64,000 bases of DNA, from positions 434,001 through 498,000 of the forward strand of contig JANQPL010000004.1 in assembly GCA_028289425.1 (NCBI GenBank), given 5' to 3'. The notes under the pieces are model-generated. The model had not been told where the DNA came from. It did no database searches and saw only the letters and a list, made by a program, of their open reading frames with translations. Source of the DNA: Alphaproteobacteria bacterium (GTDB taxonomy: Bacteria; Pseudomonadota; Alphaproteobacteria; JANQMY01). Positions 15,132 through 18,923 of the stretch are shown here, piece after piece. How positions within the stretch are numbered: position 1 is the first letter of the stretch; the number at the start of each line of letters is the position of its first letter. The translations under genes were made by a program, and so were the position numbers.

Positions 15132-15680
15132 GTGACTTCTTCAACCAACACATGGCACGGCACGACGATTCTGTCGGTCCGCACCCCAAAAGCGGTCATC
15201 GTGGCCGGCGATGGCCAGGTGAGCATTGGCGACACGGTGATCAAGAGCAATGCCACAAAAGTGCGCCGATTTGGTAAAGGCGGCGTCATTGGCGGCTTTG
15301 CCGGCGCCACGGCGGACGCCTTCACCCTGTTCGAGCGGCTGGAAGCAAAATTGGAGCAGCATCCGGGTAATCTGACCAGAGCCGCTGTCGAGCTGGCCAA
15401 AGACTGGCGCACCGACCGCTATCTGCGCCGGCTGGAAGCCATGATGGCGGTGGCCGACAAATCCACCAGTCTGGTGCTGACCGGTACGGGAGACGTGCTG
15501 GAGCCTGAGGACGGCATTATCGGCATTGGCTCTGGGGGCAACTACGCCTTGGCCGCAGCCCGCGCGCTTAACGGCCTGGACCTGGACGCGGAAGAAATCG
15601 CCCGCAAGGCCATGGGCATTGCCGCCGACATCTGCGTCTATACGAACAATGCGCTCATCATCGAAAAGATAGATCTGTAA
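15132..15680 (+). CDS. hslV: ATP-dependent protease subunit HslV
   Basis: 182-residue proteasome-like peptidase that works with HslU. GTG 15132 is chosen because GGAG lies 7 bases upstream at 15121-15124; an in-frame TTG at 15114 has no comparable site. This gives a 10-residue prosequence ending in TWHG before the catalytic Thr11 ([10 protein letters not shown]), as in other alphaproteobacterial HslV. Other marks are [32 protein letters not shown] and [11 protein letters not shown]. hslU follows after 2 bases. Confidence 0.95.
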
Positions 15681-15682
15681 TC

Positions 15683-16990
15683 ATGACGTCATTCTCTCCC
15701 CGCGAAATCGTCTCCGAGCTCGACCGCTACATTGTGGGCCAGAAGGACGCCAAACGAGCCGTCGCCATCGCGCTCCGAAACCGCTGGCGGCGCCAGCAAC
15801 TGTCCGATGATTTGCGCGAGGAAGTCCTTCCGAAGAACATTCTGATGATCGGCCCCACCGGTGTGGGCAAGACCGAAATCTCGCGCCGGCTCGCGAAACT
15901 GGCCCAAGCCCCCTTCATCAAGGTAGAGGCGACCAAGTTCACCGAAGTGGGCTATGTGGGCCGCGACGTGGAACAGATCATCCGCGACTTGTTGGAGATC
16001 AGCATCGACATGGTGCGCCAGCGCAAGCGCAAAGAGGTGCAAGCCACCGCCCACATCAATGCGGAGAACCGTGTTCTAGACGCTCTGGTGGGCGCGGATT
16101 CAAGCTCTGCGACGAAGGAATCGTTTCGCGCCAAACTGCGCAGCGGCGAACTGGACGACAAGGAAATCGAAGTGGAAGTGGCCGACACATCCAGCGTCAT
16201 GCCCAGCTTCGATATTCCCGGCATGCCAGGCGCGCAAATGGGCATGATCAATCTGAACGATATGTTTGGAAAAGCGTTCGGCGGCCGCACCAAGCGGCGG
16301 CGGACGACCGTGCGCGATTCCTACGAGCACCTGATCGCCGAAGAATCCGACAAGCTGCTCGATGAAGATTCCGTGGTTCAGGAAGCGATCGAGGCGACGG
16401 AAAATGACGGCATCGTCTTTCTGGACGAAATCGATAAGATCTGCGCCCGGTCTGAACGCCAAGGCGCCGATGTAAGCCGGGAAGGTGTCCAAAGAGACCT
16501 TCTGCCGCTGATCGAGGGAACGTCCGTTTCCACCAAACACGGCACAGTCAAGACCGACCATATTCTGTTCATTGCGTCCGGCGCCTTTCACTTGGCCAAG
16601 CCGTCGGATCTTTTGCCCGAGCTACAGGGCCGGCTGCCAAACCGAGTGGAGCTTGCCGCCCTGTCCCGGGACGACTTTCGGCGCATTCTGACGGAACCGG
16701 AGGCAAGCCTGGTCAAACAATACGCCGCCCTTCTGGCCACGGAACAAGTGACCCTCGAGTTCACTGAAGACGGTATTGATGCGCTGGCCGACATCGCCGT
16801 TTCGGTGAATGACACGGTGGAAAACATTGGCGCCCGCCGGCTTCAAACGGTGATGGAGCGGGTCTTGGAAGAGATCAGCTTTCACGCAACCGACCGGTCG
16901 GGCGAGACCGTGGTGGTGGACTCCGCCTTTGTGCAAAAACACGTAGGCGATTTGGCGAAAGACGCCGACCTCAGCAAGTTCATCCTTTAA
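15683..16990 (+). CDS. hslU: ATP-dependent protease ATPase subunit HslU
   Basis: 435-residue AAA+ unfoldase of the HslUV protease. Walker A GPTGVGKT lies at 57-64 and Walker B in [11 protein letters not shown]. The intermediate (I) domain falls between, and the sensor/arm region ends with [20 protein letters not shown]. The C-terminal tail DLSKFIL inserts into HslV in known structures. Gene order hslV-hslU is conserved. Confidence 0.98.
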
Positions 16991-17144
16991 CCAAGAAATT
17001 CGCTGTTTTGCTGGCGTTTTTGTGACGCCCGCCGCTTTCGTTAACGTTGCCCCCAGGGCCGTTTTCCATTAATGTTAAGGAAATCCGGTTCGCGGGAGGG
17101 GTGATCATGTCCGCGCCGGGCCAACCACGAATTTAGAGTATCGC

Positions 17145-18923
17145 ATGGTGGGACAGAATCTCGGATACGGCATTAGCTGCCAAGGCGAAGGGGGGTCGTG
17201 CGCGTTCCGCGCCAGCAGGGTGAAGAACGCGTTGCTGGAGCCGGCCACGCAAAAATCCCATGAAGACGTAATCGAGCGCGTTTGGTCGGGCGGTGTCGGC
17301 CGCGCGATCGTGCCGGTCATGAATCTCAAGGGCGGCGTGTTGACCGATGTGATCCGCCAGATCCCCGCTTCTGATCTGACCATTGTCAGTGAGATTTACC
17401 TGCCCATCGACCATCATCTGTTGATGCCGCGTGAAGTCATCTTCGGCCGCGACGCGGAGATTTACGGCAAGCCGATCACTAAGGCGTCGGTGGCGGAAAT
17501 CGATTTGGCGATCAAGGAAGGCATCCTGTCGCTGGACGACCACCGGCAGCGGGCACTGACCGCACAGATCACTCATGTTTATGCGGACTCACAGGCGTTT
17601 AAGCAATGCGACCGGGGTTTGCGGAACATCATCCCGCGCGCCCAACTCGCCTATACGAACTGCACGTCGGACGCGGCATTGGAAGTGCACAAGATTGCCG
17701 AAGCCGCAGCGCTTAAGAAATCGGAAACCATGCCGATCGTTTCGGCGATTGCGTCGATCGATTGCGCCGAGATGTATAATCTCTATCCGGTCAAACGGAA
17801 CATCCAGGATTTGGGCGAGGACAACCTCACCCGCTATTTGGTCTTGGCGCAGAAGCCCAAAGGCGTTTCAAACGCGAGTCTGCGCCAGCTGATCCGCGAT
17901 CTGGATTACGAGCAGATCCGACGGGTCTTCGACGCAGATGTGATGGCCGACTTGTTCGAGAATGTGCGGTTCCCCCGCGCCGTTCTGGCCGACATTTTGG
18001 ATGTGTTCGACAAAGAGCAAACACTGAATATCTATCAGTTGCTGCCCGATCCCGGACCCGACGGCGACGACGTTTGGACGCTGGACGACCTGCACACGGG
18101 CTGGCTGCGCGAGACCGTGGGCGACCGGGAGATCCGGGATGAAGTGACCGGACAAGTATTGTTCAGTGCATTCCACGAAGCACGCAAGAACCCGTATGAG
18201 CGGGTTAAGCTTTTGCGGGAAGCGCTCTGTCTACGGAACTTTGTCAGCCATGCCGCATTCGACAGCTGGGTGTTGCATTCCCACCCGACGATCGAGAAGC
18301 CGCTTAAGAAATTGCGCTCGGTGATCCGCGGCAGCGAACACCTCATAAAGCAGAAACTGCCGTCCAAGCGTATGGCCGACTTGGTACGGCGCGATTACTC
18401 GAGCCAGGTCATTTCAACCATCTTGGTACGGAGCACGAAGGCGAAGATCTCTCAGCATCATTTGCTCAAGCCCTTCTTCGACAACGAAGTGAATGTGCGT
18501 GTGATCGACAGTCTGCCGGAGGTGCGCAAAGCGAACGGCAGCGATGACACGACCAAGACCGGCTACTGGATGATCCTGGAAGTGGACGGTTATTTGGGCG
18601 ACTACAAAGCGAGCGTGCGCAAGAACGATCGCGCCAATTTCGTGGACGTGCGCGCCCCGCGCCGCACCCCCATCGAGCGGGCGCTTTACCGGGTTCAGTC
18701 CAATGGATCCGAAGTGGCCATTCTGGGCAGTTTCCCCAAAGACGCCACCTGGGATGCCAATTGGCAGTCCGGCCCGCAAAAGGAAACTGCGCGAAATGGC
18801 ATGATGCCCCGGCTGGGTGAGTTGTTTAAACAACCCTGGGCACGCTCGGCCGCGGCCGTATCGGTCGTCGCCATTGGGGGCGTGCTGATGGCCACCGTCG
18901 CCTGGGCAGTCGGCGGGCTCTAG
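17145..18923 (+). CDS. Tail-anchored protein with degenerate prephenate dehydratase and ACT-like regions
   Basis: 592 residues, not a standard annotated protein. Residues ~5-235 follow the prephenate dehydratase (PheA) pattern: GEGGSCAF, RAIVPVMNLKGG, VSEIYLPIDHHLL, VYADSQAFKQC, then AEMYNLYPVKRNIQD and DNLTRYLVLAQKP, where TRY (229-231) stands for the catalytic TRF. Residues ~425-532 resemble the PheA ACT domain and end in VAILGSFPKD (compare VKVLGSYP), but the phenylalanine-binding GAL and ESRP motifs read QHHL and DSLP. Between them is an unrecognised helical, charged insert (~245-420). Residues 567-590 form one C-terminal membrane helix with a two-residue tail. A non-catalytic or altered-specificity role at the inner membrane is inferred. 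Start ATG 17145. Confidence 0.65.
   Translation: MVGQNLGYGISCQGEGGSCAFRASRVKNALLEPATQKSHEDVIERVWSGGVGRAIVPVMNLKGGVLTDVIRQIPASDLTIVSEIYLPIDHHLLMPREVIFGRDAEIYGKPITKASVAEIDLAIKEGILSLDDHRQRALTAQITHVYADSQAFKQCDRGLRNIIPRAQLAYTNCTSDAALEVHKIAEAAALKKSETMPIVSAIASIDCAEMYNLYPVKRNIQDLGEDNLTRYLVLAQKPKGVSNASLRQLIRDLDYEQIRRVFDADVMADLFENVRFPRAVLADILDVFDKEQTLNIYQLLPDPGPDGDDVWTLDDLHTGWLRETVGDREIRDEVTGQVLFSAFHEARKNPYERVKLLREALCLRNFVSHAAFDSWVLHSHPTIEKPLKKLRSVIRGSEHLIKQKLPSKRMADLVRRDYSSQVISTILVRSTKAKISQHHLLKPFFDNEVNVRVIDSLPEVRKANGSDDTTKTGYWMILEVDGYLGDYKASVRKNDRANFVDVRAPRRTPIERALYRVQSNGSEVAILGSFPKDATWDANWQSGPQKETARNGMMPRLGELFKQPWARSAAAVSVVAIGGVLMATVAWAVGGL

Follow-up and report, generated by a model that had tools for sequence, protein, structure and literature searches.

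A PheA-like gene downstream of hslVU

The window, i.e. the whole stretch of 64,000 nucleotides analysed here, comes from a marine alphaproteobacterium with a genome of 5.4 Mb. Its forward strand, which carries all the window features described below, contains an ORF (17145..18923) encoding a non-canonical PheA-like protein of 592 aa, recognized from its open frame, a match to PF00800 and an orthologue in a sister species. This protein comprises successively a prephenate dehydratase (PDT) domain, an insert of about 180 aa, an ACT-like domain and a single hydrophobic C-terminal helix. Its gene is preceded by hslU (15683..16990), itself located after hslV, which ends at 15680, and no obvious pathway genes are found nearby. 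Since its GC3 equals that of hslU, it can be considered as a settled gene. Some 40 bases ahead of the start codon lies a non-coding block (TTCGCGGGAGGGGTGATCAT, 17089..17108) that is also found in the sister species, within a region that has otherwise diverged; this distance is too great for a ribosome-binding site of the gene.

The same genome encodes a normal PheA of 291 aa on contig C4 (PF00800, E 2e-57), which answers a question raised by the initial annotation, and TyrA is also encoded elsewhere in the genome. Hence, the PDT-type gene in the window is an additional one, dispensable for the synthesis of phenylalanine and tyrosine.

An altered PDT domain with an extended hinge

PheA is a textbook feedback-regulated enzyme with one fixed architecture. 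As in other PheAs, including the normal one of the same genome, a two-lobe PDT domain and then an ACT-type domain are found in the window protein. Previous work described the catalytic region of PDTs as being of the binding-protein type (PBP), with two subdomains separated by a cleft that harbors the putative active site, and reviewed earlier studies in which phenylalanine governs the open and closed forms (PMC8192741). The match of the window protein to PF00800 (89 bits for a cut-off of 25.2, E 4.3e-25) spans residues 10–240, in agreement with the PDT domain initially assigned to residues ~5–235. It is divided into two stretches because an extra segment separates lobe 1 (residues 10–97, 17172..17435) from lobe 2 (residues 141–240, 17565..17864), both lobes being delineated by PF00800 and residue alignment. 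This extra hinge segment (residues ~98–140, 17436..17564) is revealed by the spacing between two conserved marks, which is 55 residues in the window type and 16 in all 47 normal PheAs. The ~39 additional residues and the retention of catalytic-core residues had both been overlooked in the initial annotation.

In lobe 1, N60, which corresponds to Asn160 of E. coli PheA, is kept; M59 is found where the E. coli enzyme has E159, and V65 where 46 of 46 alphaproteobacterial PheAs have an arginine (Arg165-equivalent). In the E. coli enzyme, E159 and E232 have been described as important for binding of the substrate (PMC8192741). In lobe 2, which also includes Q154 and C173, the invariant His209 is replaced by D148 and the N-T-T-R-F sequence by N227-L-T-R-Y231, so that the TRF motif keeps Thr278 and Arg279 and has a tyrosine instead of Phe280. 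Overall, 20 of the 45 positions conserved in at least 90% of PheAs are changed. The protein had been described as a split, degenerate PheA: it is indeed altered and split by an insert, but "degenerate" is too strong, as Asn160, Gln215, Thr278 and Arg279 (E. coli numbers) are all retained.

That this protein serves as a backup PheA, as an ordinary prephenate dehydratase bearing unusual additions, is very unlikely. The PF00800 score above the cut-off and the conserved catalytic-core residues would fit such a role, but the proportion of altered positions, the presence of a normal PheA in the genome and scores far under the cut-offs of the NCBIfam PheA equivalogs (82.5 vs 359, 71.6 vs 219 and 66.7 vs 577 bits) argue against it.

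Insert, ACT-like domain and C-terminal tail

The interdomain insert (residues 241–419, 17865..18401) was already noted as a block of about 180 unfamiliar residues, and this holds: it belongs to no recognized family, and its comparison with PDB profiles, Pfam and PHROGs gave nothing convincing. When 385 genomes of the class and 398 of the phylum were scanned with the insert and the C-terminus, matches were obtained in the two members of the genus only. One match of the insert to a Chloroflexi sequence (L002) was due to chance, the common peptide DDVWTLDD belonging to a DNA methyltransferase. The full-length AlphaFold model, built from two sequences, predicts a helical insert with very low confidence (pLDDT 35) and was discarded as evidence.

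The ACT-like domain (residues 420–535, 18402..18749), which has an extra loop preceding its second helix, thus lies about 180 residues past the PDT domain and not directly after it as in PheA. Pfam gave no ACT match in the window protein, and hhalign gave a weak one (36 columns only, E 0.035). When compared with a profile of the ACT region of some 50 PheAs from Alphaproteobacteria, the two orthologues, which are not independent, obtained 10.9 and 8.5 bits; for each of them, none of 2000 shuffles of the region reached its score. The best AlphaFold model of residues 420–542, also from two sequences, reached a pLDDT of 71 and a pTM of 0.64 (pLDDT 42–53 for the other four models) and displays a beta-alpha-beta-beta-alpha-beta order. 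When searched with VIA against a PDB subset, it matched best the ACT domains of the PDTs from Brucella (6vh5) and Staphylococcus (2qmw), both with a Z of 9.2, the next matches being at Z 7.9. Foldseek E-values are modest, the best being 8.5e-4 for a MetNI domain, with the PDT-type 4lub at 4.4e-3 and the ACT region of the PDT homologue GqqA at 5e-3. Although the sequence evidence alone is weak, the profile, the model and the structure matches, together with the position after the PDT domain, lead us to accept residues 420–535 as a predicted ACT-type domain closest to those of PDTs. The structure prediction proposed as a check for this region returned a fold closest to PDT ACT domains, in favor of the PheA ACT domain initially read at residues ~425–532.

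The phenylalanine-binding GAL/ESRP-type motifs are absent from this domain, ISQH and DSLP being found at these positions. The initial annotation had read DSLP properly, but its QHHL is displaced since the GAL(V) position aligns with ISQH. This absence means little by itself, as the normal PheA of the same genome does not have the E. coli motif either, with AALY and ESYQ at the corresponding positions.

After a linker (residues 536–566, 18750..18842) delimited by comparison with the sister species, the protein ends with a predicted membrane helix, probably a tail anchor (residues ~567–590, 18843..18914). The hydrophobic stretch reported there is confirmed by hydropathy, with a mean of 2.2 (1.75 in the sister species), and this one hydrophobic helix lies at the extreme C-terminus, as in tail anchors. 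Neither other membrane stretches nor an N-terminal signal peptide were found by hydropathy in the window and sister proteins.

Purifying selection on the gene

The only close relative found, L001 (JANQMY010000132.1), comes from another species of the genus, represented by isolate PL25b_bin.64; PL25b is the sample name of a Porites lutea coral-skeleton metagenome (PMC9868349). The orthologue (L001:6001-7788) is 80% identical to the window gene product across the full length and occupies the equivalent locus, flanked by hslU and smr. The dN/dS ratios between the two genes, calculated by the Nei-Gojobori method, are rough since dS is high (1.4 or more); they amount to 0.10 for the whole gene, 0.026 for the PDT part, 0.009 for residues 1–97, 0.10 for the insert and 0.20 for the ACT-like part. 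The identity comparison, which does not depend on dS, gives 94.6% for the PDT part, 98% for residues 1–97, 77% for the insert, 60% for linker residues 536–565 and 41% for the tail, whose hydrophobicity is similar in both species. Between the same two species, the genuine PheA is 89.8% identical in its PDT part, with a dN/dS of 0.037. Hence, the PDT part of the window protein is held by selection at least as strong as that acting on a working PheA.

This selection signal refutes the idea of a decaying pseudogene or an assembly artefact, in favor of which nothing but sequence divergence can be put forward: the conserved orthologue, the full-length open frame found at the same locus in two independent assemblies and the low dN/dS all contradict it.

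A third member and the origin of the family

A class-wide scan with residues 1–240 retrieved a third member, L106/L115 (genome G237; 36% identity over 131–239, E 3.5e-14). Its frame of 539 aa matches PF00800 with 118.8 bits and is 27% identical overall to the window protein. Judging from its his genes and from hslU (77% identity), the contig is alphaproteobacterial, but its owner is uncertain because G237 is listed with 8% contamination. The window protein, L001 and L106, the three sequences from which the family is known, form one clade (support 100/98).

All three members share His209 to Asp (D148 in the window protein), Asp233 to Cys (C173) and Phe280 to Tyr (Y231) replacements, at sites that are fixed in 45–46 of 46 PheAs. 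They also share a Gln for Cys136, a Gln for the usual Glu at 271, a Tyr for the usual Phe at 185 and a Cys for the usual Ala at 257, and all of them alter Ser116, Glu159 (to Met or His) and the Arg165-equivalent (to Val or Asn). Conversely, Asn160, Gly164, Glu183, Gln215, Cys216, Thr234, Asn276, Thr278 and Arg279 are kept in all three. The ACT-like regions of L106 and the window protein are related (1 of 2000 shuffles), whereas no relation was detected between their interdomain regions, about 170 aa long in L106, or between their tails (796 and 1577 of 2000 shuffles), and the C-terminal hydrophobic helix is absent from L106. Therefore, the insert and the tail, although both present in the sister species, are lineage traits. 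As judged from these sequences, the altered PDT-ACT pair defines the family and the predicted membrane tethering is a trait of one lineage.

Another PheA type, adjacent to tyrA (L007 and L037–L041), shares with the window protein an extra hinge segment and an insertion of two residues between Gln215 and Thr234. It differs by otherwise normal PheA residues, a size of about 310 aa and the lack of insert and tail. The hinge spacing is 45 residues in this type and 35 in L106, and the Gln215–Thr234 spacing is 19 residues in the window type, L106 and the tyrA-linked type versus 17–18 in the others. These two common indels suggest that the window type may descend from the tyrA-linked second PheA type. 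A first tree grouped them (97/82) on a very long stem, and this grouping was lost after L106 was added and the hinge removed; in the tree without the hinge, a single clade of both types is neither recovered nor rejected (p-AU 0.154). Viral contigs, searched in order to deepen the alignment, yielded no PheA relatives.

In the tyrA-linked type, the extra hinge segment is about 29 residues long and tyrA lies directly before L007 and L037–L040, L041 being partial at a contig edge. Five genomes (G051, G074, G190, G284 and G070) carry both this type and a normal PheA, and one (G362) carries the tyrA-linked type only. Furthermore, two plasmid records, CP061244.1 and NZ_OL790696.1 (1.4 and 4.8 Mb), look like mis-filed chromosome pieces since they carry a chromosomal pheA.

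Association with hslVU

The order hslV-hslU-PheA-like gene, on the same strand, is found in three of three known members. They belong to two lineages: hisB and hisH are found beyond hslV for L106 as in the window, and the genes located further downstream differ. This adjacency is suggestive, and the protein might be a regulator or adaptor that reports a metabolite state to the HslVU protease. We consider this unlikely: the gaps between hslU and the PheA-like gene reach about 150–250 bases, a weak terminator-like hairpin follows hslU, and only three cases are available. Moreover, other genes occupy the slot after hslU in other Alphaproteobacteria (L068–L076), for instance a helix-turn-helix regulator followed by smr or a methyltransferase-like gene, so the adjacency may be inherited chance. 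The hslU neighborhoods of 19 other Alphaproteobacteria contained no hidden family member. A wider proposal, in which the PheA-like family encoded with hslVU would report an aromatic-pathway metabolite either to this protease or to the inner membrane, is also of low probability.

Proposed function and significance

The initial annotation viewed the protein as a repurposed, membrane-tethered paralogue. The paralogue part stands, given the normal PheA elsewhere, the purifying selection and the separate clade, but tethering is not family-wide, as L106 demonstrates. A sensor or scaffold role is plausible. Our best explanation, put forward tentatively, is that this PheA paralogue has become a separate, slowly evolving protein that would not act in biosynthesis but as a regulator gated by a metabolite or as a docking protein. 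The two-lobed PDT cleft would still bind a small molecule, probably not prephenate in the usual way since E159, His209 and the Arg165-equivalent are replaced while Asn160, Gln215, Thr278 and Arg279 stay. The ACT-like domain and the insert would relay the closing of the cleft to partners. In this genus, the tail would keep the whole reporter attached to the inner membrane, on its cytoplasmic side. Two points weaken this explanation: the four polar residues that no member has lost would be expected in a working active site, and the tail is missing in one of only three known sequences.

We lean towards a ligand-binding regulator, the probability of an enzyme with another specificity being almost as high. 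Such an enzyme would dehydrate and decarboxylate, or hydrolyse, another substrate, the tail linking it to a membrane-bound pathway. The conservation of Gly164 and Glu183 besides the four core residues in all members and the very strong selective constraint that acts on the PDT domain are in keeping with this possibility. A precedent exists in GqqA from Komagataeibacter europaeus, an alphaproteobacterial PDT homologue whose added function is an N-acyl-homoserine-lactone acylase activity besides the PDT one (PMC8192741). However, GqqA is of ordinary size and domain layout, is described as retaining both positions, E159 and E232, and still complements PDT loss (PMC8192741), whereas the window protein lacks E159. 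The loss of the invariant His209 and of the Arg165-equivalent, the change of Phe280 and the absence of obvious pathway genes next to the window gene also speak against a retained enzymatic role.

Whatever its exact function, this protein is a rare, new variant of the PheA enzyme family under real selection, in which the two halves of PheA are parted by a large insert and the active site is re-tuned at otherwise fixed positions. A clade with defined swaps located beside hslVU in two lineages offers a natural example of the possible conversion of a biosynthetic enzyme into a regulator. If the link to the protease is true, a biosynthetic enzyme would have turned into a protease-linked sensor.
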